From: Streptomyces flavofungini
Lineage (GTDB): Bacteria > Actinomycetota > Actinomycetes > Streptomycetales > Streptomycetaceae
Direction of reading: 5' to 3'
Assembly (NCBI RefSeq): GCF_030388665.1
Contig: NZ_CP128846.1
Coordinates: forward strand, 6,088,501-6,152,500
Length of the DNA: 64,000 bases
Shown one piece after another: positions 1-15,475 of the stretch. The notes under the pieces were generated by a model that had not been told where the DNA came from, made no database searches, and saw nothing but the letters and a program-made list of their open reading frames with translations. The position numbers were made by a program, and so were the translations under genes. Numbering within the stretch: position 1 is the first letter of the stretch; every line of letters starts with the position of its first letter.

Positions 1-1168
1 GGTAGCCGAACGGGTCCTGGCCGGGGCCGGGGGACTGCTGGCCGGTCGGGGAGGTGGTGCCGGGGCCGTTGGGACCACCGGGGCCGCCCGGGCCGCCGGG
101 AGCACTGGGAGCACCGGGACCGCCGCCCGGGCCACCGGGGCCCGGCGGGGGCGGGGGAGGACCCTGCTGGAACTGCTGGGAAGCGTTGGGGGCGCCAGGA
201 GCACCCGGGCCACCGGGACCGCCGGGACCGCTCGGGCCAGGCCCACCGGGGCCGTCGTACCCACCAGGGCCACCAGGGCCACCAGGGCCACCGGGACCGC
301 TCGGGCCGTTGGGACCACCGGGCCGGCTGGGACCCTGATGCGGGTAGCCGTACCCACCGGGCCCGTTGGGGCCACCGGCACCCGGACCGCCGGGCTGACC
401 AGGGCCACCGGGCTGACCGGGACCGCCGGGACCACTGGGCCCACCAGACTGGCCAGGCCCCTGAGGCGGGTACCCGTACCCACCAGGACCGGAACCGGGA
501 CCACCGGCACCGGGCCCGCCGGGCTGACCGGGACCACCAGGGCCGCCGGGCCCACCAGACTGACCGGGCCCCTGAGGCGGGTACCCGTACCCACCAGGAC
601 CGGAACCAGGGCCACCGGCACCGGGCCCACGCCCACCAAAGCCAGGACCACCAGGTCCACCGGCACCGGGCCCACCAGGCTGACCAGGACCACCCGGCCC
701 AGGCATCCCCGGAGCACCGGGCCCACCGGGCCCGTCCGGACCACCGGGCCTACCAGGCCCACCGGGCCCGCCCGGACCACCGGGCCGCCCCGTCCCGCTA
801 TGGGGCAGCGGCGGATTGGGCGCGGCAGGCGTGTACGACGTCGCCGTACCCGTCAGGAAGTTCCACCGGCACTCCTCGCAGAAGGGCGCGTTGGCCTCGC
901 GGGGCGTGCGGCACTGCGGGCAGAGCTCGGGCTCGGGGCCGAGGTCCGGCACCGCGGAAAGGTGCGCACGGCCGGGCTGGCCGGGGCCGCCCGGGCCGCC
1001 GGGCTGACCGGGGCCGCCGGGCTGGCCGGGACCCTGCGGCTGCTGGCCGTAGCCCGCGGCCGGGGGCGGTGGCGGAGGCGGCGGTGGTACGGCACCGGCC
1101 ATGCGGTGACCGCAGACCTCGCACCAGTCGTCGGAACCCGACTGGTGTCCGTTCGGGCAGGTCGGCAT
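1..1168 (-). CDS. Zinc-ribbon protein with long Gly/Pro repeat region (3' end outside window)
   Basis: Reading the minus strand from ATG at 1168 stays open to base 1, so the C-terminus is missing. It begins [11 protein letters not shown] and has two zinc ribbons: CPNGHQ/CEVCGH near residues 4-21 and CPQCR/CEECRW near residues 76-99. About 280 residues of Gly/Pro-rich sequence follow, with a repeated block containing [16 protein letters not shown]. The DNA of that block repeats at about 461-497 and 572-608. Similar Streptomyces proteins often end in an FHA (phosphothreonine-binding) domain. That would suit a kinase/phosphatase locus, but the end is not visible, so this is inference. It is the last visible gene of the pknG group. 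The reading frame is clear; function is uncertain. Confidence 0.8.
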
Positions 1169-1285
1169 GTCGGCGCTTCCCCCTCTCCTTCTCCGGCCCG
1201 TGGGCCGCGTGCACTGGCGTTCTTCCGGTACTGACAGGGCGTACGCGGGGCGTACCCGGCGTACGGGACGCCGTGGGACGCCCCG

Positions 1286-2629
1286 CTACTTCTTCACGCG
1301 GACCGTCTTCGTCGAGCGCGTCTCGAGTGTCATCTCGTCCGCCTCGGCGACCCGCGCCTTCAATCGAACAGTACCTGTCGCGGCGTCGACCACGTCCACC
1401 ACCTTGGAAAGGAGCTTGGCGGTGTCCGCGTTGCCGGACGCGCTCGCGAGCTGAACGGCCCGGCCCAGTTTGGCCGTTGCTCCGTCGTAATCGCCCGATT
1501 TGCGGGCGTCGAGGCCCTGCTGGATGACCTGAGCCAGTTCCGCCTGGCCCGTGTAGTGCGCGACCTGCGGATTGATGGACGTGGACGCCGCCATGTCGTC
1601 CGTCCAGACGGCCCGCACGAGGCCCTGGGACAGGGTCTGCACGGTGCCGTCGGCCGCCGGGACGACGAGCGAGACGCGGGCCGCGAGCATCTCCTGGCCC
1701 AGCTCGGCGCCGGGAACCCGTACACAGATGTGGTAGTCGCGGGACTCGTCGCCCCAGGAGCCGGTGGGGTAGTCACCCGCACGGGGTCCCGCCTCGGTGC
1801 GGCGGTCGGTCAACTCCTCGACCGTGGGTGCCACTTGCTTCACGAACATGATCTCCACGCCCATGGGCGTCCACAGGCGCAGGCTGACGTCGGCGACCTC
1901 CTTGCCCATCGCCGACTCCATCATCTGCGTGAAGTCGGCGGCGAGGCCCGCGGGGTCGGCCACGATGTCGGCGGTGCCGAGCAGCGCCGAGGCGATTCCT
2001 GTGACCTCTTTCACTTCCCAGTCGGTGCCGACGCCGCGCGCGTCGCAGGTGTACCGGCCCGCGCAGGCGTCGAGGGAGGCGCGCAGGTCCTCCGCCGACT
2101 CGTGTTCGTTGCGGCCGTCGGTGAGCAGGATGCCGTGTCTGATGGAGACGTCGGCGGAGGCGAGGAGGCGGTCGGCGAGGCGCAGCCAGGTGCCGATGGC
2201 GGTGCCGCCGCCCGCGCTGAGCTTGCGCAGGGCCTCCTTGGCCTGGGTGCGGGTCTGCGGGCCCGCGACGGCGAGGCGGCCGCCGCCGGGGTAGACCTCC
2301 GTGGCGACGTGGGTGCCGCCGATGACCGCGAAGTGCACGCCGTCGCGCAGGGCGTCGATCGCGGCGGCGGTGGCGTCGCGGGCGCCGCGCATCTTCGTCG
2401 GTGGGTAGTCCATGGAGCCCGAACAGTCGACCATGATCGCGACCGCCGCGTCGGGGCCGTCCCCCACCGCGTACAGATGGGGCGCGCCGACCGCGGAGCC
2501 GATGGTTCCGCCGCCCGTCGAGGTGACCGTGGCGATCGCGCTGACTTCGCGGCCGCCCTCGGGCAGGTACTCGTTCTGGTAGACGTCGACGGTGAACTGC
2601 GGGACGTTCGACTTGGAGAAATTGGCCAT
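1286..2629 (-). CDS. von Willebrand factor A (vWA) domain protein
   Basis: 447 residues starting MANFSKSNVPQFTVDVYQ. A vWA fold is indicated by the metal-ion-dependent adhesion site VDCSGSM (Asp68, Ser70, Ser72) and the later ILLTDGRNEH segment. There is no signal peptide or membrane helix, so the protein is probably cytoplasmic. The C-terminal ~80 residues (TGQAELAQVIQQGLDARKSG onward) look helical, like a short TPR-type repeat region. Such vWA proteins often sit beside bacterial Ser/Thr kinases and PP2C phosphatases. This one lies just downstream of the PP2C gene and upstream of the zinc-ribbon repeat gene, all on one strand. The family call is strong; its partner and role are unknown. Confidence 0.88.
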   Translation of the reverse strand: MANFSKSNVPQFTVDVYQNEYLPEGGREVSAIATVTSTGGGTIGSAVGAPHLYAVGDGPDAAVAIMVDCSGSMDYPPTKMRGARDATAAAIDALRDGVHFAVIGGTHVATEVYPGGGRLAVAGPQTRTQAKEALRKLSAGGGTAIGTWLRLADRLLASADVSIRHGILLTDGRNEHESAEDLRASLDACAGRYTCDARGVGTDWEVKEVTGIASALLGTADIVADPAGLAADFTQMMESAMGKEVADVSLRLWTPMGVEIMFVKQVAPTVEELTDRRTEAGPRAGDYPTGSWGDESRDYHICVRVPGAELGQEMLAARVSLVVPAADGTVQTLSQGLVRAVWTDDMAASTSINPQVAHYTGQAELAQVIQQGLDARKSGDYDGATAKLGRAVQLASASGNADTAKLLSKVVDVVDAATGTVRLKARVAEADEMTLETRSTKTVRVKK

Positions 2630-2777
2630 GGTTGGTGCTCCCCCCTAGGACTTCATTCCACAGAGCTCGGATCTGCTGCCCGCCGCGGTGCCCGCGCGTG
2701 CGGGTGGTGCCGGTGCGCGCGTGGGGCGAAGGCCACCGGGACAGCCGATCGGCCGCGTGGCGCGGCTCCCGCCCGCG

Positions 2778-4319
2778 CTAGGCCGATCCTGCCCCCTGCG
2801 GAGGGGCGGGGAACGGCAGGACCGCCACTGTTACGTTGTCGTGGCCCCCGCCGTCGAGCGCGTGGCCGACGAGGACCTGGGCGCTGTGCAACGGCCTTCG
2901 GGCGGCGTCGAGGGGGACGGCGCGGGCCATCTCCTCGGCTGCCTCCGCGTAGTTCCACAGGCCGTCCGTGCACACCACCACTACACCCGGGCGGTCCGGC
3001 TTGAAGGAAGCGGTGTGCGGCTCCAGTTCGTACGCGTCGGCGCCGAGCCAGCCCGTGATGGCGTGCGCGCGCTCGTCCGCGTACGCCTCGGCCTCGTTCA
3101 TCAGGCCCGCGGCGACCATCTGGGCGGCCCAGGAGTCGTCCTCGGTGAGGCGGGCGGCGGGGCCCGAGCGGTCGACCGGCACCCAGTAGACCCGGCTGTC
3201 GCCGACCCAGCCGATGACGAGCAGGCCGCCCGCGACGACGGCGCCGACGAGGGTGCAGGCGGGCGCGTTCTGGTGCGGGCTGTGCTCGCGGGCGCCGGTG
3301 GGTTCGTCGGCGAGGGCGTTCACGGCCTCGGCGGCGGCGAGGATCGCCTCGTGCATGGCCTGCTGCGGGTGGGCGCCGCGCGGCAGGGCGGCCCGGAGGG
3401 TGGCGTCGGCGGCGCGGGAGGCGGCCATGGAGGCCTCGTCGGGGCGGGTCGCCGAGGAGACGCCGTCGCAGACGACGGCGATGACGGCGGGCGAGCCGTC
3501 GGGCAGCGCCGCCGCGGAGATCGCGAACGCGTCCTCGTTGCGGTGGTGGCGCAGGCCCCGGTCGCTGACGGCGGCGACCGCGTCGAGCTCCTGCTCCATG
3601 TGGTCGCGCTCGCGCGGCTGGGCGTGCCCGCAGTTCTCGCAGTAGCCGTCGGGGGCGACGTGCCCGGAGCGGCAGGCGACACACAGTTTGGTTCCTGCGG
3701 ACGGGGTGGGGGCGACGGGTGCCGGGGCCTGGGGCGCCGGAGGGGCGGAAGGGGCCTGGGGCGCCGGAGAAGCCGACTGGTCGGGCGTGGGCGTGCCGGT
3801 GCGCGGGTCGGCGGCCGGGGCGGCGCCGGGCGTGGGGGCCGCGAGGGGGTAGCCGTCGGGCTCGGCGGCCGTGGCGGCCGGTCGGCCGGGGGCCCCGGGC
3901 CCGGTGGCCGAGGAGGCGCCAGGAACGCCCGCACCGCCGGAGTCCCCGAGCTCGGCGCCGGAGGAGTCCGTGCCGGGCAGGTCGGAGGAGCGGTGCGTCG
4001 GGACCGGGGTGTCGGAGCTGTCGACCTCAGGGGCCACGGGCCATTGGCCGGAGCCGGGAGCACGTCCCGCGGCCGCCGTGTCGGAGGCGCCGGGAGCCGG
4101 GCCGGAACCGGAGCCCGGCGCGCCCTGAGGCGCGGAGCCCGGCAGCGGCGGCAGGCCGTTGATCGCGAGCGTGGGCCGGTCCTCCGGCGGCGCCGGGACC
4201 GCCGAGAGGTCGTAGCCGCACGCGCCGCAGAACAAGTCGCCCGTATCCAGGGGCTCCTCGCAGCTCGGACACGTGGACAAGGCCGCCGGTTGGTGCATTT
4301 GCGCCATCTTCACACCCAC
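2778..4319 (-). CDS. PP2C-family Ser/Thr protein phosphatase with two zinc ribbons
   Basis: 513 residues from a GTG at 4319, overlapping the end of pknG by 10 bp; an in-frame ATG at 4307 (MAQMHQ) is an alternative start. An N-terminal zinc ribbon uses Cys17, 20, 31 and 34. A Pro/Ala-rich linker of about 170 residues follows, then a second ribbon (CVACRSG and CENCGH). The C-terminal ~260 residues are the PP2C domain, with RNEDAFAI, VVCDGVSS, GDSRVYW, VCTDGLWN and GHDNVTVAV supplying the metal-binding aspartates. It should dephosphorylate Ser/Thr residues. As the neighbour of a PknG-type kinase it is probably the opposing phosphatase of that pathway, which is inference from context. Confidence 0.92.
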   Translation of the reverse strand: MGVKMAQMHQPAALSTCPSCEEPLDTGDLFCGACGYDLSAVPAPPEDRPTLAINGLPPLPGSAPQGAPGSGSGPAPGASDTAAAGRAPGSGQWPVAPEVDSSDTPVPTHRSSDLPGTDSSGAELGDSGGAGVPGASSATGPGAPGRPAATAAEPDGYPLAAPTPGAAPAADPRTGTPTPDQSASPAPQAPSAPPAPQAPAPVAPTPSAGTKLCVACRSGHVAPDGYCENCGHAQPRERDHMEQELDAVAAVSDRGLRHHRNEDAFAISAAALPDGSPAVIAVVCDGVSSATRPDEASMAASRAADATLRAALPRGAHPQQAMHEAILAAAEAVNALADEPTGAREHSPHQNAPACTLVGAVVAGGLLVIGWVGDSRVYWVPVDRSGPAARLTEDDSWAAQMVAAGLMNEAEAYADERAHAITGWLGADAYELEPHTASFKPDRPGVVVVCTDGLWNYAEAAEEMARAVPLDAARRPLHSAQVLVGHALDGGGHDNVTVAVLPFPAPPQGAGSA

Positions 4320-6979
4320 GTCCGGGGGCGGAAACGGTTGGCCCGCTCCACCAGTTCGATCCTTTCCTCGCCACCCTGTGCGAGCCGGGCCAGGGTTCGG
4401 TACGAACGTTCCAGACCGAACCGGAGGCCCCGCTCGTCCAACTCGCTGCCGAGCAGTACGGTTCCCGCACGCCCGTCGCTCGCGGTCGCCGAGGGCCCTG
4501 AGGGCGCCGGGGCGGTACCGGAGTGGTGGCTACCGGAGAGTACCCAGTCGAGCGCCGTGCCGAGGACTTCCGTCGAGAGGCGCTCTCTGCGCACCGCGTC
4601 GAGGCCGAAGCCCGCGAGTGCCTCGACCTGCCCGGCGGCGGCCGTCAGGTCGTCCAGGAACCGGGCTCCGGGCCCGGCCGCCGTGTCGAACGTCATACGC
4701 CGCCGCAGCCGCGCCCGCACCGCGGCGACGCGGGCCGCCGTGTAGTGGATGGACGACTCCGGCACGGACTCCAGCGTACGCACCGCGCCGCTCCGGTCGC
4801 CCGTGGCGAGCTGCACCCGGGCGAGCCCGAAGGCGGCGCTGACGTAGCTCGGGTCGGTCGCCCACACCAGGCGGTAGTACTCGGCGGCGTTGTCGAGCTG
4901 GCCGAGCACCTCCGCGCAGACGCCGAGGGCGAGCTTGGGCGCGGGCTCGCCCGGGAACGCGTCGTACACCGCGTCGAAGGAGAGCGCGGCGATCTCGTGG
5001 TCGCCGTTGGTGAGCGAGGCGACCCCGCGGTACCAGATCACCCGCCAGTCGTCCGGGTGGTCGATCTCCAGGGACTCCAGGGCCTTGCCGGCGGCGACGG
5101 AGTCGCCCAGGGTGAGCAGCGCCCGCAGCTCGCGCAGCCGCAGCTCGGTGGAGGTCGCCGGGGCGGCCCCGAGCGCGGCGATCAGCTCGGCGCCCGACGA
5201 GTCCACGAGCCCGGCGAGGAAACCGGCGTTGGCGTCGCCGGGGTCGACCCGGGGCACGGGCAGGGCGAGCGACGTCGCGGGGGCGTCAAGGGCACGCACC
5301 AGCGAGGCGGACGCGGTGCCTTCCCCGGTGCCCGCACCTGCGCTCGCGTTCGCCCCGGCGCCACCATCGCCGGCCTCCCCGAACGCCTCCAGCCCCAGCG
5401 CGCCGGCGACCCCACCCCCGAGGCTCCCGTCGTCCCCGGCGCCACCGGAGGCCCGCCCCGCAGGCCCCCGGGCCCCGAGCACCGACACCTCCCCGGCCGG
5501 CTCCGCGAACAACTCCGTGTCCGTGACCTTCACTTCGGGCCCGAACAGCGTGGAGAGCGCGGGCCGGGGCCGCCCGCTCTGCACCGCCACGACCTCCCGC
5601 AGCACGCCGGTCAGCTGCTCGGCCATCTCCTGGGCGGAGCCGAAGCGGCGCGCCGGGTCGGGGTCGGTGGCCCGCACGAGCAGCCGGTAGAACGACTCGT
5701 ACGTCCGGAAGACCTCGATGTTGTCCGGGTCGGGCAGCGAGTCCACGAAGACGTTCGTGTAGCCCTGGAAGTCGAAGGTGAGCACGGCCAGCGTGCGCGC
5801 GACCGTGTACAGGTCGGACGCCACCGAGGGGCCGACCTCCGCGACCTCCGGGGCCTGGTAGCCCACGGTGCCGTAGATCGCCGACTCGTCGTCGTCCATG
5901 CGGCGGACCGCGCCCATGTCGATGAGCTTGAGCTGGTCCTCGGTCTGGATGGCGTTGTCGACCTTGAAGTCGCAGTACAGCAGGTTGCGGCTGTGCAGGT
6001 GGCCGAGCGCCTCCAGGGCCTCGATGCCGTACGCGCAGGCCTGCTCCACCGGCAGCGGATCGCGCTTGCCGGTGGGCGTGCGGCGGCTGTTGGCGATCTC
6101 CTTGAGGGACTTGCCGCCGACGTACTCCATGACGATGTAGCCGTCCATGGAGCCGGTGCGCTGGTCCAGGTGCTCGACGAAGTTGTAGATCCGCACGATG
6201 TTGGCGTGCTCGATCTCGGCGAGGAAGCGGCGCTCGGAGATCGCCGCGGCCATCGCGTCCTGGTCACCGGTGTCGAGCAGGCCCTTGAGGACCACCCAGC
6301 GGTCGGACACCGCGCGGTCCACGGCGAGATACACCCAGCCGAGGCCGCCGTGCGCGAGACACCCCACGACCTCGTACTGGCCGTGCACGATGTCGCCCTC
6401 GTTCAGCTTCGGCACGAACGAGTACGGGTGGCCGCACTTGGTGCAGAAGCCCTCCGTGCGCCCGGGGCGCTCCCCGCGGGCGCGGCCCACCGGCGCGCCG
6501 CAGTCGGAACGCGAGCAGAACCGCTTCCTCTCGGGCACCTCGGGGTTCTGCTGCACCGCGCCGCGCGGGTCGGGGCGCGGCACCTGCGGCACCGAGACCA
6601 GGCCGACGCCGAGCCTGCTGCGGGCGGAGGACGCCGTCGACGAGCCGGAGCTGCGCACCGACACCGACCGCGCCGACGTACCGCTCGACGTGGCGCGCGA
6701 GAGCCGGCCCGAGACCGAGCGGCGCGAGGAGGACGACCGGGAGGAGCGCGTGCTGCCGCGGGTGCCGCGCGAGCCGACGCTGGAGGAGGCCCGCGAGCCC
6801 CGCCCGCTGCGCCCGCCGACCGTGATGCCTGTGGCCGGGGAGCCCACCATGCCGCTCGCCGACACGACCGGGGCGAGGCCGCATGTGTCGCAGTACAGCT
6901 CGCCGCCGCCCACGTCCTCGTACGAACCCGTGCACTTGGGCCGCTGGCACGGCTGCTGCCCGCCGTTCTCCTCGCTCAT
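4310..6979 (-). CDS. pknG: PknG-type Ser/Thr protein kinase (rubredoxin-like domain, kinase, TPR)
   Basis: 889 residues from ATG at 6979; the start overlaps the previous stop as ATGA. It has an N-terminal zinc ribbon (Cys11, 16, 30, 33), then a Ser/Arg-rich disordered stretch (~45-120). A rubredoxin-like domain follows (Cys155, 160, 179, 182), as in mycobacterial PknG. The kinase domain spans ~200-470, with Lys232, the catalytic loop YCDFKVDN (Asp337; Cys replaces the Arg of HRD) and IDMGA in place of DFG (Asp354), also PknG-like. A low-complexity Gly/Ala linker leads to a TPR region (~600-760). In mycobacteria PknG controls glutamate metabolism by phosphorylating an FHA inhibitor of TCA enzymes. 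The extra N-terminal ribbon and the Ser/Arg tract are notable. Confidence 0.95.
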   Translation of the reverse strand: MSEENGGQQPCQRPKCTGSYEDVGGGELYCDTCGLAPVVSASGMVGSPATGITVGGRSGRGSRASSSVGSRGTRGSTRSSRSSSSRRSVSGRLSRATSSGTSARSVSVRSSGSSTASSARSRLGVGLVSVPQVPRPDPRGAVQQNPEVPERKRFCSRSDCGAPVGRARGERPGRTEGFCTKCGHPYSFVPKLNEGDIVHGQYEVVGCLAHGGLGWVYLAVDRAVSDRWVVLKGLLDTGDQDAMAAAISERRFLAEIEHANIVRIYNFVEHLDQRTGSMDGYIVMEYVGGKSLKEIANSRRTPTGKRDPLPVEQACAYGIEALEALGHLHSRNLLYCDFKVDNAIQTEDQLKLIDMGAVRRMDDDESAIYGTVGYQAPEVAEVGPSVASDLYTVARTLAVLTFDFQGYTNVFVDSLPDPDNIEVFRTYESFYRLLVRATDPDPARRFGSAQEMAEQLTGVLREVVAVQSGRPRPALSTLFGPEVKVTDTELFAEPAGEVSVLGARGPAGRASGGAGDDGSLGGGVAGALGLEAFGEAGDGGAGANASAGAGTGEGTASASLVRALDAPATSLALPVPRVDPGDANAGFLAGLVDSSGAELIAALGAAPATSTELRLRELRALLTLGDSVAAGKALESLEIDHPDDWRVIWYRGVASLTNGDHEIAALSFDAVYDAFPGEPAPKLALGVCAEVLGQLDNAAEYYRLVWATDPSYVSAAFGLARVQLATGDRSGAVRTLESVPESSIHYTAARVAAVRARLRRRMTFDTAAGPGARFLDDLTAAAGQVEALAGFGLDAVRRERLSTEVLGTALDWVLSGSHHSGTAPAPSGPSATASDGRAGTVLLGSELDERGLRFGLERSYRTLARLAQGGEERIELVERANRFRPRTWV

Positions 6980-8295
6980 GCTTCCCCCCTCCGATCGGTG
7001 GGCCCGCTCTGGTGCGGGACCCTCGGCGCCAGCGCGTCGGCCGCCGCCTGCTGATAGCGCAGCACCGCCTGCTCGGCCACGCGCAGGTCGCAGGGCGCGC
7101 TCCAGAGCATGCGGCGCGCCGCGTCGTACCGCTCGATGAGGACCGGGTCCTCCGCGAGGCCGTGCCGGGCGACCTTCGCCTTGTACGCGTCGAGGCGGCC
7201 GCGCAGCTCCGCGCGGACCGCGAGCGGCGCGGTGACGGCCGTCAACGACTCGCGGGCGCGCAGCAGTTCGTCCTCGGCCTTCTCCTCCAGGGACTCCAGG
7301 AGCGGCGAGAGGCGGTGCCACTGGGCGTTCCTGCGGTAGTCCGCGGCCATCGCCAGCTGCTCCTGGAGCGCCGTGGGCGGCCCGGACACCGCGGGCACCT
7401 CGGACGCGGCGATCTTCGCCAGCACCTCCCCGCGCGCGGAGCGGGCCTCGGCCAGGGTGCGGTCCGCGCGGGAGAGCACGTCGCGCAGCTTGCCGAGGCG
7501 GGCCTCGGCGTCCTGGCGGACCGTGAGCACGGCGTCGATCTCGCGGCGCACGTCCTCCAGGGCGCGGGCCGCGTGGTCGTAGCGGTCGGTGTGCGGGCGG
7601 CCACCGCCGGGGGCCGAACTGCCGCGCGTGGGCTGCCAGAAGGCGAGCGGGTCGGACACCACCTGCTCGCGCAGCGCCGTGAGCTCCTGGGTGATGCGCT
7701 CCAGGTCGTCGCCCGAGGGGTGCTCGCCGGGGCGGACGCCCACGGAGTGCGCGAGCTGACGGGTGCGCTGGAGTTCGGCGGCGAGCAGGTCGATGCGGGC
7801 GGGCAGCGCGGACCAGACGGCGTCGGCGGCGACGACCACGTCCAAGGAGTGCGCGTACAGGTCGTTCATGCGCGCGACCAGCTCTTCGAGGGTGAACTGC
7901 TCGGTGAGCTTCGCGGGCCCCGTGATCGACGGCGCGGCGCCGGAGGCGGAGCCGCCCGCGACGGTGACGCTCCGGCCGCGCAGCAGCCGGGTCAGTTCGA
8001 GCAGGTCGTCGCGGTTGGGCCAGCGCCTGCGCTCGCGCACCTCGCGGGCGGTGTTCAGGGCGCCCGCGTACGCGTCGAAGTACGTCCAGAGCAGCGTGAT
8101 CCGGGCTTCCGTGCCGAGCCAGCGTTCGTGCGTGGTGCCGGTGAGCCGCGCGCCTTCGAGGAGGCGGCGGCCCGCGTGGTCCTGGAGGGCGAGGAGCGAC
8201 GTCTCGATCGCCTCGTGCTCGGCGTCGAGCCGCACCAGCGCACGGTCCACCTCGTCCCGGTCCATGACGGGTCCGGGGGGTCCCGCGACGCTCAT
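6976..8295 (-). CDS. Alpha-helical hypothetical protein of the pknG locus
   Basis: 439 residues starting MSVAGPPGPVMDRDEVDRAL, ATG at 8295 preceded by GGAGAG. There is no signal peptide or membrane segment. The sequence is almost entirely Leu/Ala/Arg/Glu-rich helix with coiled-coil character, for example around LEDVRREIDAVLTVRQDAEA and LESLEEKAEDELLRARESL. I do not recognise a family. The stop overlaps the pknG start by 4 bp (ATGA), so the two are probably translated together. Lying between the GlnH-like sensor and the kinase, it could be a scaffold or adaptor that relays the signal; nothing in the sequence proves this. Confidence 0.82.
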   Translation of the reverse strand: MSVAGPPGPVMDRDEVDRALVRLDAEHEAIETSLLALQDHAGRRLLEGARLTGTTHERWLGTEARITLLWTYFDAYAGALNTAREVRERRRWPNRDDLLELTRLLRGRSVTVAGGSASGAAPSITGPAKLTEQFTLEELVARMNDLYAHSLDVVVAADAVWSALPARIDLLAAELQRTRQLAHSVGVRPGEHPSGDDLERITQELTALREQVVSDPLAFWQPTRGSSAPGGGRPHTDRYDHAARALEDVRREIDAVLTVRQDAEARLGKLRDVLSRADRTLAEARSARGEVLAKIAASEVPAVSGPPTALQEQLAMAADYRRNAQWHRLSPLLESLEEKAEDELLRARESLTAVTAPLAVRAELRGRLDAYKAKVARHGLAEDPVLIERYDAARRMLWSAPCDLRVAEQAVLRYQQAAADALAPRVPHQSGPTDRRGEA

Positions 8296-8343
8296 CGATC
8301 ACTCTCCGCTCTGCGTGTCGCGTGTGCTTCGGATCCTGCGCGT

Positions 8344-9426
8344 TCAGTCCTTGTACTTCGGCTTCGGCGGCCCCGCCGAGTCGCCGAGGTCGTCGGCGAG
8401 CCACTTGTCGTACGAGGCGCGCCAGCCGTCCTTGTCCTTGCGGAAGTCGTCCAGTACGTCGTTCACGCGCCGCACCAGGTCGTCCGCGTCCTTCTTCATC
8501 GCCACGCCGTAGTACTCGGTGGTGAACGGCTCGGCCCCCTTCAGCTCCACCGTCGGGTCCTGCGCGGCCTGGCCCGCGGCGAGCGCGCTGTCGGTGACCA
8601 CCGCGTCCACCTCGCCGAGCTGGAGCCTTACCAGGCAGTCGAGTTGGTTCGGCACCGTGGTCCTGATGTCGGCACCGAAGCTGTTCTCCTTGAGCGCCGT
8701 CTCCGCCGTGGAGCCCGCGGCGGAGCAGACCTTCTTGCCCTTCAGCGTGTCGTTGTAGCCCGTGATGTCGGAGGTCTTCGGGGCGAGGACCTGCTGGCCG
8801 GTCTCGAAGTACGCCGTGGAGAAGGCGACGTCCTTGATGCGGTCGCAGTTGATGGTCATCGTGCGCACGATCATGTCGACCTGGCCGCTCTGGATCGCGG
8901 GGACGCGCTGGTTGGTGGGGATCGCGCGGAACACCACGGCGTCGCGGTCGCCGAGCAGCCGCTCCGCGATCTCGTGCGCCAGGTCGATGTCGAAGCCCTC
9001 CAGTTTGCCGACGCCCTTGTTGGGGTCGCGATAGCCCCAGCGGTAGCTGTTCTGGTCGACGCCGACGACGAGCTTCTTGACCTTGCGCTGCTTGATCTTC
9101 TCCAGCGTCGGCCCGTCCTTGGTGTCGGGCCGCAGGCTGCGCTCGGGCGCTTCGCACTCGTCGGCGCGCGCGGGCGCGGCCTGCGTCAGCCGGTCCGCGT
9201 CGGCCGAACCGCCGCCGCTGCCCGCGCCGTTGCCGCCGCGCAGCTGCGGCAGTGCGAGGACCAGGGCGATCGCGAGCAGACAGGCGAGGGCCATCGAGGC
9301 GACCCCGCCCCAGCCGCGCAGGACCGCGAGGCCGCGGCGCGGGCGCCGTGCGTACCGGGTCGCCGCGGCCACGTGCTGTTCCTTCTCGCCAGGTCGCGTA
9401 CGCATCGTCCGCGCGCCCCCCATCAC
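8344..9426 (-). CDS. glnH: GlnH-like extracytoplasmic glutamate/aspartate-binding protein
   Basis: 360 residues from GTG at 9426, overlapping the glnX stop as GTGA. After a basic N-terminus a single hydrophobic segment (GVASMALACLLAIALVLALP, ~42-61) exports and anchors the protein. Its only Cys lies in the middle of the segment, so it looks like a signal anchor rather than a lipobox. The rest is a periplasmic-binding-protein type II fold of the polar amino acid family (KLVVGVDQNSYRWGY, EGFDIDLAHEIAERLLG, GQVDMIVRTMTINCDR). No permease or ATPase gene is nearby. This matches mycobacterial GlnH, which signals to PknG through GlnX rather than feeding a transporter. Confidence 0.88.
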   Translation of the reverse strand: MMGGARTMRTRPGEKEQHVAAATRYARRPRRGLAVLRGWGGVASMALACLLAIALVLALPQLRGGNGAGSGGGSADADRLTQAAPARADECEAPERSLRPDTKDGPTLEKIKQRKVKKLVVGVDQNSYRWGYRDPNKGVGKLEGFDIDLAHEIAERLLGDRDAVVFRAIPTNQRVPAIQSGQVDMIVRTMTINCDRIKDVAFSTAYFETGQQVLAPKTSDITGYNDTLKGKKVCSAAGSTAETALKENSFGADIRTTVPNQLDCLVRLQLGEVDAVVTDSALAAGQAAQDPTVELKGAEPFTTEYYGVAMKKDADDLVRRVNDVLDDFRKDKDGWRASYDKWLADDLGDSAGPPKPKYKD

Positions 9427-10868
9427 CGGTACTCCGAAAGCCTGCGGCCGATGCCGAGCACGGCGGCCGCCGCGCCGACGACCGCGAGCACGGCCGCGCC
9501 GATCGGCAGGCCCGTCATGGCGCCCTTGCCGTCCTCGGCGGCCTGCTTGAACTCCCGCTGCTCGTGCGCGAGTGCCGCGTCGAGGGCCGCGTCCACATTG
9601 TCGAAGGACTCGCCGGTCGGCTCGTCGCTCCTGGTGCCGATGACCTTGTCGAGCGCGCCCTCGTAGTCACCCGAGTCGTCGCTCGCGCGGGCCGACTTGT
9701 GGCGTTCCTTCCACTCGGCCACGTTCGCCGCGGCGGCCGCCACGGGACGCTTGCCCGACTCGTCGTCGGCCAGCTCGGCAGCCTTGCCGAGCAGTCCCTT
9801 CTCGCCCGCCTTCGCGCCCGCGAGGCGCGCCATCTGCCGCTGGTAGGCCACGTCGAACTTGTCCTTCGTGGCGTCGTCCACGGTGACGGTCTCGGCGCCC
9901 CGGCTGACCAGGGTCAGGTTCTCGTTGCCCCGGGCCTTCAGGGAGCTGATGCGGGCGTCGTTGAGGACGTTCAGGGACTTCACGCCGCGGTCGTAGGACT
10001 CGTTCAGGCCGGAGCGGGCGAAGGTGTGCCCGCCGAGCAGCCACAGCAGCGCCACGGACGCGGCGACCGTGGCCGCCAGCAGGCCCGTGTTGAACACCCT
10101 GTTCGTCCGCCGGTAGTTGCGGTGCTGGGCCCAGCCGAGGGCGGCCAGGGTCACCACCCCGAGGGCGATCGCGGGCCAGGGGTACGGCTTCGCGTCGGCG
10201 TAGTCGTCGGTCAGGCGCTCGTTCTCCGCCTTGTAGAGCTTCTCGGCGGCCGGGAGCATCCGGGTCTGCATCGTGTCGTTCGCGTACCGCAGATAGGCGC
10301 CGCCGAGCGGCAGGCCCTGGCGGTTGTTGGCGCGGGCCCGCTCGATCAGGGCCGTGTACTGGGGGAGGAGCTTGTTCAACCGGCTCACCGACGCCGCCGA
10401 CGAGGAGTCGGAGCCCGCGTTCGACGCGGCCGTCGCGAGCTTCTCGCCGGCCCGGTCGATGTCCCGCTGATACCGCTCGCGGACCTTCGCGGGCTCCTGG
10501 CCGCCCGCCAGGAAGCCGCTGGACGCGGCCGTGTTGGCGTCCGCGAGGGAGCGGTAGATCGCGGCGGCGTCGTTGCTCAGCGGCTGGCTGCGGTTCAGGA
10601 CGCGGTCCGCCGCGTCCGCCCGGGAGGTCGTCTGCCAGGCCGTGACCGCGCCGAACGCCAGGACCAGGGCCGCGAGGACCGCGCCGATGGCGCGCAGCCT
10701 GCCCGGCTCCGTCGTCGCCGCCGCGCGCAGGCGGTCCACTCCTTCCGCCCACGCCGTGCTTCTTCCTGGCGCGGGCGCCTGGTGCGGTGGGCTCGCTGTC
10801 TGCTGCTTCGGCAGTGGTGGACTCGTGGGTGCGGGCGCGTGCGGTGGTGCCTGTGGTGGGTGTGTCAC
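9423..10868 (-). CDS. glnX: GlnX-like four-helix membrane signalling protein
   Basis: The start is GTG at 10868, chosen because AAGGGGGAGG lies 8-10 nt upstream; a longer frame from 10949 lacks such a site. The 481 residues contain a Pro-rich cytoplasmic tail and four predicted membrane helices: AIGAVLAALVLAFGAVTAW, then PAIALGVVTLAALGW, GLLAATVAASVALLWLLGG and the C-terminal GAAVLAVVGAAAAVLGIG. Helix-rich extracytoplasmic loops of ~140 and ~150 residues separate helices 1-2 and 3-4. Order and overlap with glnH and pknG match the mycobacterial glnX-glnH-pknG operon, where GlnX passes ligand-bound GlnH status to PknG. Assignment rests on topology and synteny; sequence similarity was not computed. 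Confidence 0.82.
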   Translation of the reverse strand: MTHPPQAPPHAPAPTSPPLPKQQTASPPHQAPAPGRSTAWAEGVDRLRAAATTEPGRLRAIGAVLAALVLAFGAVTAWQTTSRADAADRVLNRSQPLSNDAAAIYRSLADANTAASSGFLAGGQEPAKVRERYQRDIDRAGEKLATAASNAGSDSSSAASVSRLNKLLPQYTALIERARANNRQGLPLGGAYLRYANDTMQTRMLPAAEKLYKAENERLTDDYADAKPYPWPAIALGVVTLAALGWAQHRNYRRTNRVFNTGLLAATVAASVALLWLLGGHTFARSGLNESYDRGVKSLNVLNDARISSLKARGNENLTLVSRGAETVTVDDATKDKFDVAYQRQMARLAGAKAGEKGLLGKAAELADDESGKRPVAAAAANVAEWKERHKSARASDDSGDYEGALDKVIGTRSDEPTGESFDNVDAALDAALAHEQREFKQAAEDGKGAMTGLPIGAAVLAVVGAAAAVLGIGRRLSEYR

Positions 10869-11120
10869 CTGACCTCGACCTCCCCCTTGGTCGTCGGACT
10901 GCCCTTCCTTCCGGGCCTTGGTGGCTGCGGAAGCAGTGCACGGCCGCAAGTATCGCCGCAGGGGGCGACATCCGCACAGGGCTTGACTCGATCTTGTGCG
11001 GATTGGTGGGCCACCGGGTGCCTTTGAACACGCGTCGGGGGCGTGTTCGGTTCCCGTACGGGCGCTGGCCGGGGGCCTTGGGGGGGCTTGGAGGGCTTGG
11101 GAGCTGTTCTCGCCGGTGTC
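10869..11120. other. Upstream region of the glnX-pknG locus
   Basis: No convincing gene. It should hold the promoter of the long minus-strand signalling operon. The minus strand has A/T-richer bases near 10983-11028, but I could not identify a clear -10/-35 pair. Confidence 0.5.
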
Positions 11121-11190
11121 CCCTTCGGGTGGGACAGCCTCCGCCGATCGGCGCTTCGCGCCTCGTCCTCAAGCGCCGGACGGGCTGATA
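11121..11190 (+). repeat. Dispersed Streptomyces intergenic repeat, copy A
   Basis: A 70-bp stretch built from CCCTTCGGGTGGGACAG, CCGATCGGCGCTTCGCG, CTCGTCCTCAAGCGC and CGGACGGGCTGA. The same order of blocks recurs at 23572-23640 and its last part at 35475-35510. The hairpin-like blocks (CGATCGGCG, GCGCTTCGCGC) suggest a REP-like intergenic element. Confidence 0.7.
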
Positions 11191-11204
11191 CTGCCTGGGC
11201 CAGG

Positions 11205-11245
11205 CCGGAATGCCCCCTCCGGCCAGCCCGGAATGCCCCCTCCGG
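11205..11245. repeat. Two 18-bp direct repeats
   Basis: CCGGAATGCCCCCTCCGG occurs twice, at 11205-11222 and 11228-11245, separated by 5 bp. Each copy has self-complementary ends (CCGGA/TCCGG) and could form a small hairpin downstream of the kinase gene. Confidence 0.75.
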
Positions 11246-11246
11246 T

Positions 11247-11310
11247 CGGGCTGAGATGTCCTCCGGCAGGTAGCTCGCTCCGCCCCCCGGCCGGAGGACG
11301 TCTCAGCCCG
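11247..11310 (-). terminator. Large hairpin after the sugar-kinase gene
   Basis: Two 21-bp inverted arms, 11247-11267 and 11290-11310, match at 20 of 21 positions and enclose a 22-nt loop. The hairpin begins ~20 nt past the kinase stop at 11331, so it is a probable transcription end for the minus-strand sugar operon. No long T-run follows it. Confidence 0.7.
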
Positions 11311-11330
11311 GCCGGGGAGCGGAGCGCGGG

Positions 11331-12347
11331 CTACCCGTCGGAGCTGTAGTGCGCCCGTGCCCGTGCGTGCGCCCCCGCTGGTGCGCCCAGTTCGTCCAGG
11401 CCCAGGAGGATCGCGCCCAGGACCGGGCTCTCCGTCACCACGCGGGGGGTCGCCTTGGGGGCGCGTTCGGCGAGGAGGGTGCGGATGGTGTCGTCGAGGC
11501 GGGGGTGGCGGGCCGCCAGGACGCTGCCGCCGAGGAGGACGGGGGCCGCCTCGTCGAGGAGGTCGAGGCGGGTGAGGGCCACGGTGGACATCGCCACGAC
11601 CTCCTCGGCCATGCGGTCGACCAGGGAGCAGGCGATCCGGTCGCCGGTGGCCGCCGTGGCGAACAGGACGGGGGTCAGCTCGTGCTGGCGGGCGGGCTTG
11701 ATGTGGCCGAGGTGCAGGGCCTCGATGAGGGCGTACATGGACGGCAGGCCGAAGTGCGCGGGCAGGGCGGTCATGAGGGCCGTGGGGCCGCCCCTGCCGT
11801 CCTCCGCGCGGGCCGCGTGCCACAGCGCCTCCTGGGCGAGGTGGCCGCCGCCGCCCCAGTCGCCGGAGATCTTGCCGATCGCGGGGAAGCGGGCCGTGCG
11901 GCCGTCCGGCAGCATGCCCACGCAGTTGATGCCCGCCCCGCACACCACCGCGACCCCGCGCGGCTCGGCGTCCTCGACCAGGCCCGCCCTGAGGATCGCG
12001 AAGGTGTCGTTGCGGACGTCCACGCTGGTGCTCCAGCCGCGCCGCCGCAGCGCGGCCGCCAACTCCCGTTCCTCCACCGGGAGATCGGCGTTGGCCAGAC
12101 ACGCGGAGACGTGCCCGACCGAGGTGGGACCGGCCGCGCCGAGGGCGGCGGTGACCGCCTCGGCGAGGGTGTCCACGGCGGTCTCCACGCCGACCAGCGG
12201 GGGCTGGAAGCCGCCCCCGCGGGCCGCGCCGACGACCTCGCCGGCCGCCGTGACCACCGCGACGTCGGTCTTGCTGTTGCCCGCGTCGATGGCGAGCAGG
12301 GACGCGGACGCCGAAGGGTCCGCGCCGTGCGGTCTGCTCAGGCCCAC
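11331..12347 (-). CDS. BadF/BcrA-family sugar kinase (N-acetylglucosamine kinase-like)
   Basis: 338 residues from GTG at 12347, overlapping the GH4 stop by 10 bp. Actin-like ATPase motifs are visible: LLAIDAGNSKTDVAVV (phosphate 1), DVRNDTFAIL, AVVCGAGINCVG (phosphate 2), GDWGGGGHL and LLGGSVL (adenosine). This is the BadF/BadG/BcrA ATPase family that includes N-acetylglucosamine kinases. The product probably phosphorylates the monosaccharide released by the neighbouring glycosidase. It is the last gene of the ROK/ABC/GH4 operon and is translationally coupled to GH4. The exact sugar (glucose, GlcNAc or another) cannot be read from sequence. Confidence 0.88.
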   Translation of the reverse strand: MGLSRPHGADPSASASLLAIDAGNSKTDVAVVTAAGEVVGAARGGGFQPPLVGVETAVDTLAEAVTAALGAAGPTSVGHVSACLANADLPVEERELAAALRRRGWSTSVDVRNDTFAILRAGLVEDAEPRGVAVVCGAGINCVGMLPDGRTARFPAIGKISGDWGGGGHLAQEALWHAARAEDGRGGPTALMTALPAHFGLPSMYALIEALHLGHIKPARQHELTPVLFATAATGDRIACSLVDRMAEEVVAMSTVALTRLDLLDEAAPVLLGGSVLAARHPRLDDTIRTLLAERAPKATPRVVTESPVLGAILLGLDELGAPAGAHARARAHYSSDG

Positions 12348-13603
12348 GCCAGGTGCTCCCGGTTGTGTGCGAGGAGGTCGTCCGTGAGCTTCTCCGCGTA
12401 CTCGTACTGACCCACCAGCGGGTGGGCGAGCAGCGCCTTGAAGACGCGGTCGCGGCCGCCGTGCAGGGCGGCGTGCAGCGCCAGGTCCTCGTAGGCGGTG
12501 ACGTTCGCGATCAGGCCGGAGAAGAGCGGGTCGAGGGTCGGGACGGGCAGGGGCTTCGCGCCGGATCCGTCCACGGACGCCTGGACCTCGATGACCGCGT
12601 CGTCGGGGAGGAAGGGCAGGGTGCCGTTGTTGTGGGTGTTGACCACCTGGTACGGGCTGCCGCTACCGCTGAGGAGAGAGGCGGCGAGGTCGACCGCCGC
12701 CTCCGAGTAGAAGGCGCCGCCGCGCTTGGCCAGCAGCTCCGGCTTCTCGTCGAGCGCCGGGTCGCCGTACATCTTCAGCAACTGCTCCTCCATCGCGGCC
12801 ACTTCGGCGGCGCGCGAGGGCTTGGTGCGCAGCTCCCGTACGACCGCGTCGTGCTGGTAGTAGTAGCGCAGGTAGTACGACGGGACGACGCCGAGGCGGT
12901 CGACGAGGGACTGCGGCATGTGCAGGTCCTCGGCGACGGCCTCGCCGTGCTCGGCGAGCAGCTTCGGCAGCACGTTCTCGCCGCCGGGGCCGCCGAGGCG
13001 CACGCCCAGCTCCCAGGTGAGGTGGTTGAGGCCGACGTGGTCCAGGTGCACCTGGCCGGGGTCGACGCCCAGGTGCGCGGCGAACTTCCGCTGGAAGCCG
13101 ATGGCGACGTTGCACAGGCCGACGGCCTTGTGCCCGGCCTGGAGCAGGGCGCGGGTGACGATGCCGACGGGGTTGGTGAAGTCGATGATCCACGCGTTCG
13201 GGTTGGTGCGGCGGACGCGTTCGGCGATGTCGAGGACGACGGGGACCGTGCGCAGCGCCTTGGCGAGGCCGCCCGCGCCGGTGGTCTCCTGGCCGACGCA
13301 GCCGCAGTCGAGGGGCCACGTCTCGTCCTGCTGCCGGGCCGCCTGGCCGCCGACGCGCAGCTGGAGCAGGACCGCGTCGGCGTCGGCGACGCCCGCGTCC
13401 ACGTCGGACGTGGTGACGATGCGGCCCGGGTGGTCCTGCTTGGCGAAGATGCGGCGGGCGAGGCCGCCGACCAGCTCCAGGCGGTCGGCCGCCGGGTCGA
13501 CGAGGACGAGCTCCTCGATCGGCAGGGTGTCCCTCAGCCGCGCGAATCCGTCGATGAGTTCGGGTGTGTAGGTCGAGCCTCCGCCGACCACTGCGAGCTT
13601 CAT
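12338..13603 (-). CDS. GH4 family 6-phospho-beta-glucosidase-type glycosidase
   Basis: 421 residues, ATG at 13603 with AAAGGG upstream. An N-terminal Rossmann motif (KLAVVGGGSTYTPEL) binds NAD. DFTNPVGIVTRAL, GLCNVAIGF (metal-binding Cys) and GLNHLTW (metal-binding His) are the GH4 signature. GH4 enzymes cleave glycosides by an oxidation-elimination mechanism using NAD and Mn2+. Bacterial members usually act on 6-phospho-glycosides, but Streptomyces homologues sit with ABC importers rather than PTS, so the substrate may be an unphosphorylated disaccharide. It lies between the second permease (8-bp gap) and the kinase (10-bp overlap), giving an import-cleave-phosphorylate route. Confidence 0.93.
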   Translation of the reverse strand: MKLAVVGGGSTYTPELIDGFARLRDTLPIEELVLVDPAADRLELVGGLARRIFAKQDHPGRIVTTSDVDAGVADADAVLLQLRVGGQAARQQDETWPLDCGCVGQETTGAGGLAKALRTVPVVLDIAERVRRTNPNAWIIDFTNPVGIVTRALLQAGHKAVGLCNVAIGFQRKFAAHLGVDPGQVHLDHVGLNHLTWELGVRLGGPGGENVLPKLLAEHGEAVAEDLHMPQSLVDRLGVVPSYYLRYYYQHDAVVRELRTKPSRAAEVAAMEEQLLKMYGDPALDEKPELLAKRGGAFYSEAAVDLAASLLSGSGSPYQVVNTHNNGTLPFLPDDAVIEVQASVDGSGAKPLPVPTLDPLFSGLIANVTAYEDLALHAALHGGRDRVFKALLAHPLVGQYEYAEKLTDDLLAHNREHLAWA

Positions 13604-13611
13604 GTGCTGAA

Positions 13612-14523
13612 TCAGCCCTTTACTCCGGTGAGGGTGACGCCTTCGACGAAGGCTTTCTGTGCGAAGAAGAAGATGACGATGACCGGAGCCATGACCAGGA
13701 GGGTTGCCGCCATGGTCATGTTCCAGTTCACCATGTGGGCGCTCTTGAAGGATTCGAGGCCGTAGCTGAGGGTCCAGGAGCCCGGGTCCTGCGCGGCGTA
13801 GATCTGCGGGCCGAAGTAGTCGTTCCAGCAGTAGAAGAACTGGAACAGGGCGATGGCCGCGATGCCGGGCTTGGCCATCGGCACGATGATCCTCAGCAGG
13901 GTCCTGACCTCGCCGCAGCCGTCGACGCGCGCCGACTCGATGTACTCCTTGGGAATCGTCAGGAGGAACTGGCGGAGCAGGAAGATCGAGTACGCGTCAC
14001 CGAACGCCATCGGGATGATCAGCGGCCACAGCGTGCCCGACAGGTGGAACTGCTGGGCCCACACCAGGTACATCGGGATCACGATGACCTGCGGCGGCAG
14101 CATCATCGTCGAGATGACCAGGAGCATCGCGGTGCGGCGGCCGCGGAAGCGGAACTTGGCGAGGGCGTACGCCACGGGGATCGCCGAGCAGACCGTGAAG
14201 AGGGTGCCGAGCCCCGCGTACATCAGGGAGTTGCGCCACCAGGTGAGGAAGCCGTCCGTCTCGAAGACGGCCTTGTAGTTCTCCCAGTGCCAGGAGGACG
14301 GCCACAGGTCGCCGCTCATCGCCTGCGAGTCGCTCATCACGGACGTCAGGAAGACGAACACGAAGGGCAGGATGAAGAGCAGGGCCACGGCGATGGCGAC
14401 GCTGTGCACGGCGATCCAGTGCAGGACGCGCTTGCGGCGGGCGCGGGCGGCCTCGGGGCCGCGCGAGCGCACGGGGGTGTCGGTGGCCTTCGGAGCGGGC
14501 GCGCTGAGTGTCGTGGAAGTCAT
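13612..14523 (-). CDS. Sugar ABC transporter permease (MalG/CUT1 type)
   Basis: 303 residues from ATG at 14523. Six predicted membrane helices begin with VALLFILPFVFVFLTSV, and the EAA cytoplasmic loop that contacts the ATPase is present (EYIESARVDGCGEVRTLLRI). The long N-terminal tail and the C-terminal VEGVTLTGVKG are typical of the MalG group. It pairs with the permease 6 bp upstream and with the lipoprotein at 15476-16816. No ATPase is encoded here, which is usual in Streptomyces, where the shared ATPase MsiK energises several CUT1 importers. Confidence 0.93.
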   Translation of the reverse strand: MTSTTLSAPAPKATDTPVRSRGPEAARARRKRVLHWIAVHSVAIAVALLFILPFVFVFLTSVMSDSQAMSGDLWPSSWHWENYKAVFETDGFLTWWRNSLMYAGLGTLFTVCSAIPVAYALAKFRFRGRRTAMLLVISTMMLPPQVIVIPMYLVWAQQFHLSGTLWPLIIPMAFGDAYSIFLLRQFLLTIPKEYIESARVDGCGEVRTLLRIIVPMAKPGIAAIALFQFFYCWNDYFGPQIYAAQDPGSWTLSYGLESFKSAHMVNWNMTMAATLLVMAPVIVIFFFAQKAFVEGVTLTGVKG

Positions 14524-14529
14524 CGGTGA

Positions 14530-15462: not shown

Positions 15463-15475
15463 GGCGGGGCCCTCC

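Follow-up and report, generated by a model that had tools for sequence, protein, structure and literature searches.

Is the amino acid-responsive operon built around the protein kinase PknG complete with three genes, or do these belong to a larger unit? The question is raised by a locus of Streptomyces flavofungini (genome of 9.36 Mb), found at positions 1-10868 of a stretch of 64,000 nucleotides that is called the window below (NZ_CP128846.1, 6,088,501-6,152,500; G000:C1:6088501-6152500; genomes, loci or stretches, and families carry the labels G, L and f, respectively, and Streptomyces is in f1). Its minus strand encodes, in the direction of transcription, a GlnX-family membrane protein, a GlnH-like binding protein, a helical protein (Hel), a PknG-type kinase, a PP2C-type phosphatase, a von Willebrand factor A (vWA) protein and a zinc-ribbon protein with a forkhead-associated (FHA) domain. 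The locus is a real, widely conserved, extended version of a known pathway. From the sequence evidence we read it as the probable full form of the actinobacterial GlnH-GlnX-PknG operon, comprising a sensor pair, a helical scaffold, a kinase, a matching phosphatase and a vWA/FHA pair, with a rough probability of 0.55.

In mycobacteria and Corynebacterium, a genetic link between GlnH/GlnX and PknG has been shown, and a signal route via the tetratricopeptide repeat (TPR) part of PknG has been proposed. The three-gene GlnX-GlnH-PknG core has been described as conserved in other Actinobacteria, Streptomyces included (PMC6069109), in a paper whose main text does not contain the words 'phosphatase' and 'von Willebrand'. 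A first-pass annotation of the window, made from the letters alone, had called the extended form undescribed, and no paper mentioning PP2C, vWA or FHA genes at pknG was found among open-licence full texts.

Architecture of the locus

Family and domain matches support the first-pass annotation in its proposal that phosphatase and vWA/ribbon genes are linked to GlnX-GlnH-PknG here; its seven-gene minus-strand order is borne out by gene calls, domains and the GlnX family match. The genes and their parts are as follows.

9423-10868, minus strand: GlnX-family membrane transducer, 481 amino acids (NF058618)
8344-9426, minus strand: GlnH-like solute-binding protein, 360 amino acids, with an N-terminal hydrophobic anchor (SBP_bac_3, 95.6 bits; 6h1u, E = 2.9e-49)
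6976-8295, minus strand: Hel, helical protein without known family, 439 amino acids, C-terminal motif ELRGRLDAYxAKAxxxGxAE...APCDL
4310-6979, minus strand: PknG-type kinase, 889 amino acids, with N-terminal ribbon, S/T/R/G-rich linker, rubredoxin, kinase and TPR (PF16919, PF00069, PF16918)
6881-6949, minus strand: extra N-terminal zinc ribbon of PknG (CQRPKC...CDTCG), read from the sequence
6404-6625, minus strand: PknG rubredoxin domain (PF16919, 106 bits)
5774-6376, minus strand: PknG kinase domain (PF00069, 88.9 bits)
4319-5299, minus strand: PknG TPR domain, PknG_TPR (PF16918, 277 bits)
2778-4307, minus strand: PP2C-type phosphatase with two N-terminal zinc ribbons (PF13672, 56.6 bits); start ATG 4307, with GTG 4319 possible
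1286-2629, minus strand: vWA protein, 447 amino acids, with a DCSGSM motif like that of a metal ion-dependent adhesion site (MIDAS) and VWA_3_C (PF13768, VWA_3; PF18571)
1289-1330, minus strand: C-terminal tail of the vWA protein, TLETRSTKTVRVKK, a candidate phospho-threonine ligand (conserved end; pairs with the FHA neighbour)
1-1168, minus strand, continuing past the window edge: protein with double zinc ribbon (1112-1159 and 869-922), Gly/Pro linker and FHA domain
L009:11129-13168: the entire gene for the FHA protein, 679 amino acids; FHA domain (PF00498, 57.3 bits) at residues 591-669, beyond the window

Overlaps had been claimed at four or more junctions, but only two of the six overlap, GlnX/GlnH and Hel/PknG, by 4 nt each. 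The PknG stop is followed after 2 nt by the ATG of PP2C, which is shared by eight printed relatives, and these two genes overlap (by 10 nt) only if GTG 4319 is the start. The remaining three intergenic gaps measure 48, 148 and 117 nt. The last product had been described as a zinc-ribbon Gly/Pro protein; ribbons and linker were read correctly, but the C-terminal FHA domain, its most telling part, was missed because the gene runs past the window edge. Rfam gave zero matches in window positions 1-16000.

Domain matches agree with these assignments. The window PknG aligns with the mycobacterial kinase 2pzi across rubredoxin, kinase and TPR (E = 4.1e-165), including the positions of the Lys and Asp that we take to be catalytic and of the Asp that we take to bind metal. 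The best solved relative of the phosphatase is PstP (1txo, E = 2.4e-9); its metal-binding motifs CDG, GDSR, TDGL and GGHDN recur in most printed relatives, and the N-terminal motif HRNED is present in the window protein (an over-strict pattern missed nearly all relative rows). The FHA protein has the phospho-threonine-binding motifs GRRRH, VSHQH and STNGT, in which Arg, Ser and Asn are presumably the functional residues, and a weak similarity to GarA (6i2q, E = 0.00067).

Hel found nothing above cut-off in Pfam or NCBIfam. Its AlphaFold2 (AF2) model is all-helical and confident (predicted local distance difference test, pLDDT, 89.3), and a structural search with it returned no convincing relative. 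The window Hel and its Streptomyces alboflavus NRRL B-2373 counterpart share 98% identity. In a separate observation, Hel is split across two frames in L085 (G001), where the other six genes are well matched.

Conservation across genomes

To establish which genes each locus contains, stop-to-stop frames were searched with phmmer and profiles. As one best label was assigned per frame, another gene sharing that frame may be concealed, as was Hel in L248, which was found by the Hel search only. Absences in the class and phylum PknG_TPR searches and in the Hel search are soft, because six candidates per genome were scored there.

Within the order, 234 of 245 genomes gave a PknG_TPR match; the class sample gave 101 of 296 and the phylum sample 36 of 296, 20 of these 36 above the family cut-off. 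Ten PknG-negative genomes of the same genus were searched for GlnX; nine were without it, and in the tenth (G140) the sequence stops at a contig end inside pknG. Hel was matched in 82 of the 296 class-sample genomes, 69 of them strongly (E = 1.1e-10 or better), and by hand count 68 of these 69 also have a PknG match. The exception is G040, and the PknG of G022 is a fragment.

Whether the gene order holds beyond this strain had been set as a check, and it does. All seven genes occur in 17/17 same-genus stretches picked from the stronger PknG matches (L071-L087) and in L204. The complete order is present in 64 of 80 named Streptomyces loci, while 15 stop at contig ends and L156 has no detectable GlnX; since these 80 were seeded with Hel, they are uninformative on its absence. 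The same order was found in other genera of f1 (L201-L203; vWA weak in L203), in f3 (L205-L208), f20 (L101, L102, L218, L219), f28 (L105, L106, L217), f13 (L107) and f44 (L109). Thus, all four sampled genera of the source's family carry the seven-gene set, as do six other families. In f19 the order is Hel-PknG-PP2C-vWA-FHA-GlnX-GlnH, with variants that lack a detectable Hel (L097, L098, L240), have a weak (L098) or very weak (L228) vWA, or are without vWA (L230, L231) or without vWA and FHA (L229, which begins at a contig edge). Outside the class, L210 has the set as two halves on opposite strands.

Shorter forms also exist. GlnX-GlnH-PknG alone, in that order, is the arrangement in f6 (L091-L094, L224, L225, L233-L237) and in L110 of f48; L223 and L226 are second f6 copies without neighbours. 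Within f6, G501 has a complete seven-gene locus with the PknG ribbon (L222), one of three PknG_TPR places in that genome. No vWA or FHA was seen in L104 of f20.

In addition, paralogue modules were encountered in which PknG-like, vWA and GlnX-like genes stand together with no PP2C or FHA match (L209, L212, L213, L238). Their vWA proteins end in zinc-ribbon-like stretches and have no STxT tail. L088-L090 gave PknG-like and GlnX-like matches only.

The vWA tail and its FHA neighbour

VWA_3_C (PF18571) has a single match in the source genome, at the window vWA, and none in 14 control genomes. Matches, some of them weak, occur in 71 of the 296 class-sample genomes, and 67 of these 71 also have PknG_TPR. 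Among 87 VWA_3_C places, 60 lie within 8 kb of PknG_TPR, 4 are far off on the same contig and 23 are on contigs without PknG_TPR.

The vWA protein ends in ETRSTKTVRVKK in 81/87 rows of the Streptomyces group, and LDTxST[KR]T-like ends are found in f13, f28, f44, f81 and part of f3, f19 and f20. An ETTS-like first Thr was considered as the invariant site and rejected, since certain rows of f20 and f3 have Ala, Met or Val there; STxT or SVxT holds.

Tail and FHA domain occur together. At 133 vWA loci, an STxT tail was accompanied by FHA in 112 cases and never stood without it where more than 2.5 kb of sequence was left; the stretch ended too soon in 11. Neither was present in five (L209, L212, L213, L220, L238), and FHA stood without a vWA tail in a further five (L214, which is decayed, L098, L203, L108 and L252), all with weak or partial vWA matches. 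The tail is therefore present in 112/117 vWA proteins beside FHA and in 0/5 without it, the latter being divergent paralogues and most of the vWA rows close relatives of one another. A structure model of the vWA protein (mean pLDDT 48, shallow alignment) was not used, and its low confidence in the tail proves nothing.

Cassettes of PP2C-vWA-FHA away from the main pknG were observed in f20 (L242-L252). PknG and Hel matches lie beside L246 and L247, and Hel alone beside L243 and L248; L248 and L249 are short contigs, and L248 reaches only the start of the FHA gene. The vWA tail is kept in the ten loci L242-L251.

Extra zinc ribbons on PknG and GarA

In this genome GarA is encoded away from the operon (L191; G000:C1:7975014), with an ETTS motif, an FHA domain and an N-terminal zinc ribbon; the gene adjoining garA in L191 was read as MerR-type. 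A close GarA was present in 31/31 genomes in one search and in 64/65 in a second.

Counted over the rows that contain the conserved anchor (18 rows without it, including 4 of f6 and 7 paralogues, are uncounted), an extra PknG ribbon lies upstream of the anchor in Streptomyces (97/97), other f1 genera (3/3), f3 (4/4), f28 (3/3), f19 (14/15), f20 (2/4) and f13, f44, f81 and L222 (1/1 each). It is absent from f6 apart from L222 (0/9) and from f48 (0/1). GarA has its ribbon in 28 of the 30 rows read, the two without it being from f48 and f6. GarA alignments begin at residue 27 or later in 21 of 24 f6 genomes and at residues 6-8 in the other 3 only across a stop codon; in f19 all 16 begin at residue 1-2. 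G442 and G358, with neither vWA nor FHA seen at their loci, retain the ribbon. Two ribbons are also found on most printed PP2C rows, and two on the FHA protein.

What appears to be new here is the presence of extra zinc ribbons on PknG, PP2C, the FHA protein and GarA, which the PknG (L222 apart) and GarA of f6 and f48 lack, together with the pairing of vWA tail and FHA domain and the two Streptomyces genomes that have lost only part of the operon (see below). The joint pattern in PknG and GarA is suggestive, short of statistical proof, because one or two joint-loss events may explain it. The GarA of Saccharopolyspora erythraea, a 154-residue protein according to the text of PMC12321487, is taken from that length to be of the short kind.

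The sensor pair

The product of 9423-10868 had been named GlnX-like, with similarity to GlnX proposed as a check. The match to NCBIfam NF058618 ('GlnX family signal transduction membrane protein') is strong, at 503 bits against a cut-off of 250, and that to the stricter equivalog NF041460 reaches 187 bits of the required 780. The protein is therefore a relative of a kind other than the studied subtype. A Pfam search of this GlnX gave no match.

Alignment of GlnH with the mycobacterial protein had likewise been proposed; mycobacterial GlnH is the best solved relative (6h1u, see above). With the ligand-contact residues as named in the text of PMC6069109, the window pocket keeps R147, T162, R169 and D250 and has S164 replaced by T, K161 by R and W232 by Q. 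Across the Streptomyces group R147, R169 and D250 are kept in 99/99 rows and T162 in 98/99; W232 is Gln in 98/99 and Trp in 11/11 rows of f6. Asp/Glu specificity has been predicted for the PknG-linked GlnH of the order Actinomycetales (PMC6069109).

The N-terminus of Streptomyces GlnH (window, L071, L074, L079, L083, L112, L121, L132, L145 and L150) is hydrophobic, of the form ~xGWGGVxxMAxxCAL, with no clear lipobox; a lipobox-like LxxC is seen in printed rows of f6, f20, f28, f13, f81 and L222. Streptomyces GlnH may be membrane-anchored instead of a lipoprotein.

GlnX-family genes are more numerous than PknG in f3, where seven genomes searched have two to five each and one PknG (two in G017). 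Nine extra GlnX copies were inspected (L313-L320 in G003, G009 and G017 of f3; L321 in G166), and eight have no nearby PknG or GlnH match; L313 has a GlnH match nearby.

A model for the seven-gene operon

In the reading that we prefer, an amino acid would be bound by GlnH on the outer side of the membrane, and GlnX would pass this information on to the TPR region of PknG. The kinase would phosphorylate GarA, setting flux at 2-oxoglutarate, and probably also threonines in the tail of the vWA protein, which in its phosphorylated state would be bound by the FHA protein. PP2C would then strip the phosphates and reset the system. The soluble partners are probably tethered to one another by the ribbons that PknG, PP2C, the FHA protein and GarA carry. 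This scheme of writing, reading and erasing on the vWA tail is an inference, and our best guess is that the vWA/FHA pair switches a second, GarA-independent output.

A more sweeping proposal seems doubtful to us. It holds that the PknG operon of mycobacteria is what remains of a ribbon-built complex in which ribbons acted as a shared docking code, PknG wrote on both GarA and the vWA tail, another FHA protein did the reading and PP2C the erasing; the proposal would also imply a second output beyond the tricarboxylic acid cycle in most PknG-bearing actinobacterial families.

Several observations weigh against the preferred reading. L232 of f19 and L103, a second copy in f20, keep only PknG, GlnX and GlnH, so the reduction is not special to f6. 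G207 and G231, of the same genus, show only the divergent PknG-vWA-GlnX module (L212, L213), and 8/10 of the f20 cassettes L242-L251 have no PknG match. The GarA ribbon does not strictly mark the seven-gene operon, an idea that was tried and rejected: it is gone in G270 (f29) despite PknG, PP2C, vWA and FHA matches, and it is lost in several of the PknG-less families, which include GarA both with and without it. Correlations of tail and ribbon come mostly from related genomes, and the root of the PknG tree was not inferred. The ligand of Streptomyces-group GlnH may differ from that of mycobacteria, because the Trp contacting the ligand side chain is Gln in this group. The strongest point against a single closed module is that Hel, PP2C and FHA apparently also act outside the PknG pathway, as set out next.

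One module or two

Two genomes far apart in the Hel tree have lost or broken exactly the same four genes. G040, at a locus beside a family 4 glycosidase gene (L322), has lost GlnX, GlnH, vWA and PknG (of which an 18-bit trace is left) through three separate gaps and retains Hel, FHA and a PP2C with readable catalytic motifs. In G022 (L214) the same four are fragments and the same three are intact. Part of the operon thus needs no PknG, and a 'complete sensor-to-output module', as first claimed, is too strong a description, given also that GarA is encoded elsewhere.

These losses raise an alternative in which the operon holds two modules, one of sensor and kinase (GlnX, GlnH, PknG, vWA) and one for general phosphate handling (Hel, PP2C, FHA) that also serves other kinases, for instance of the PknA/PknB type. 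It would fit the pairwise ratios of nonsynonymous to synonymous substitution rates (dN/dS) between the kept genes and those of four relatives, which lie within 0.23-0.59 (0.23-0.56 in G022, 0.27-0.59 in G040; 0.29-0.54 in an intact deep relative), the retention of GarA in PknG-less genomes and the paralogue modules of PknG, vWA and GlnX with no PP2C or FHA match. However, in f20 vWA goes with PP2C and FHA where there is no PknG match; in the three-gene loci of f6 and f48 Hel, PP2C, vWA and FHA are all absent together and PknG is kept; and strong Hel is almost always found with PknG. Just two loss cases are readable, and constraint on the kept genes may be slackening, since the end branch of the G022 Hel is long (0.15, median 0.045) and the dN/dS of the G040 PP2C is raised (0.39-0.54, against 0.34-0.38 in the intact deep relative). 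We regard the two-module account as a tentative option, on the unlikely side.

Gain or loss of the four additional genes

The preferred reading of a full-form operon also bears on its history. According to the first-pass annotation, the pathway had gained the additional genes here, so that the three-gene mycobacterial form came first and this lineage acquired phosphatase, vWA and ribbon effectors. The distribution argues otherwise, since the set is present in all four family genera sampled and in seven-gene loci of f1, f3, f13, f20, f28 and f44, in another order in f19 and, outside the class, in L210; under a gain scenario, these four genes would have had to come together several times, each time in one order.

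Two quick PknG trees, without bootstrap, were made. The first (64 rows) used the paralogues L088-L090, L209, L212, L220 and L238 as outgroup, which did not fall on one side of a branch; the second left these out, together with L103 and L239. In the first tree, the 13 f6 rows without PP2C, vWA and FHA group as a single clade (support 100), whose neighbour is the seven-gene copy L222 (99); the second tree agrees. At minimum, the states of PP2C/vWA/FHA change five times in the first tree, with paralogues uncounted, and four times in the second. L110 of f48, likewise of three genes only, shifts between the trees, and its position therefore carries no claim.

With the root not inferred, counts alone cannot separate gain from loss, which leaves some room for the gain account. 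Loss on the f6 branch is nevertheless simplest, given L222 inside f6 and the presence of the set in most other families, and we consider gain improbable. The three-gene mycobacterial-type operon is thus most simply seen as a reduced descendant that would have lost Hel, PP2C, vWA and FHA, along with the extra ribbons on PknG and GarA.

Relation to known systems

The closest known system is the GlnX-GlnH-PknG-GarA/OdhI pathway of Mycobacterium and Corynebacterium (described in the texts of PMC6069109, PMC9769921 and PMC8546545), with which the locus shares a GlnX-family protein, an SBP3 sensor, the rubredoxin-kinase-TPR build of PknG, gene linkage and the ETTS of GarA. In contrast to that pathway, the Streptomyces locus adds Hel, PP2C, vWA, FHA and ribbons on PknG and GarA, and its GlnH lacks the Trp that contacts the ligand and, in Streptomyces, any clear lipobox. 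The phosphatase shares its PP2C domain with the PstP/Ppp type, 1txo being the best solved relative by sequence, but has two N-terminal zinc ribbons and sits in the pknG operon.

The logic of a kinase that writes and an FHA protein that reads is shared with the PpkA-PppA-Fha switch of type VI secretion systems (T6SS), where the PP2C phosphatase PppA reverses phosphorylation. There, an FHA protein reads phospho-threonine written by the kinase on a partner (PMC3953482). The likeness is one of logic only, as kinase, sensor and organisms differ; no secretion genes were recognised by eye in the frames of window 1-16000 and L009, in which no T6SS-directed search was made.

TerY-P consists of TerY (vWA), a kinase and PP2C (PMC4978471 and PMC7699616). 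That the locus is a TerY-P-like triad for stress or phage defence, brought to pknG by chance, is highly improbable: vWA, PP2C and a Ser/Thr kinase do stand side by side, with zinc ribbons, but the locus also has a sensor pair, an FHA protein and Hel and is kept at one fixed place across the genus, unlike an island, and no TerY-specific Pfam match was obtained. PADLOC (E 0.001) gave no match for vWA or PP2C (whether it includes every TerY-P model was not checked) and none for Hel, GlnH, GlnX or FHA; its match to the window kinase is read as generic, because kinase models of several defence systems match simultaneously.

To our knowledge, the phosphatase that resets PknG outside Corynebacterium and the partners of PknG besides GarA are open questions. 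For both, the locus supplies concrete material that can be studied in harmless laboratory Streptomyces, namely a phosphatase, another FHA reader besides GarA and a well-defined site that is a candidate for phosphorylation. It also suggests that conclusions based on three-gene operons may fail in many PknG-bearing actinobacteria, antibiotic producers included, in which GarA is already an engineering target (PMC12321487).

Further observations

Downstream of the FHA gene, the gene convergent to the operon was read by eye as a methyltransferase. Elsewhere in the source genome, G000:C1:3720068-3730903 has six Ser/Thr kinase matches, one of them below the family cut-off, in ~11 kb.

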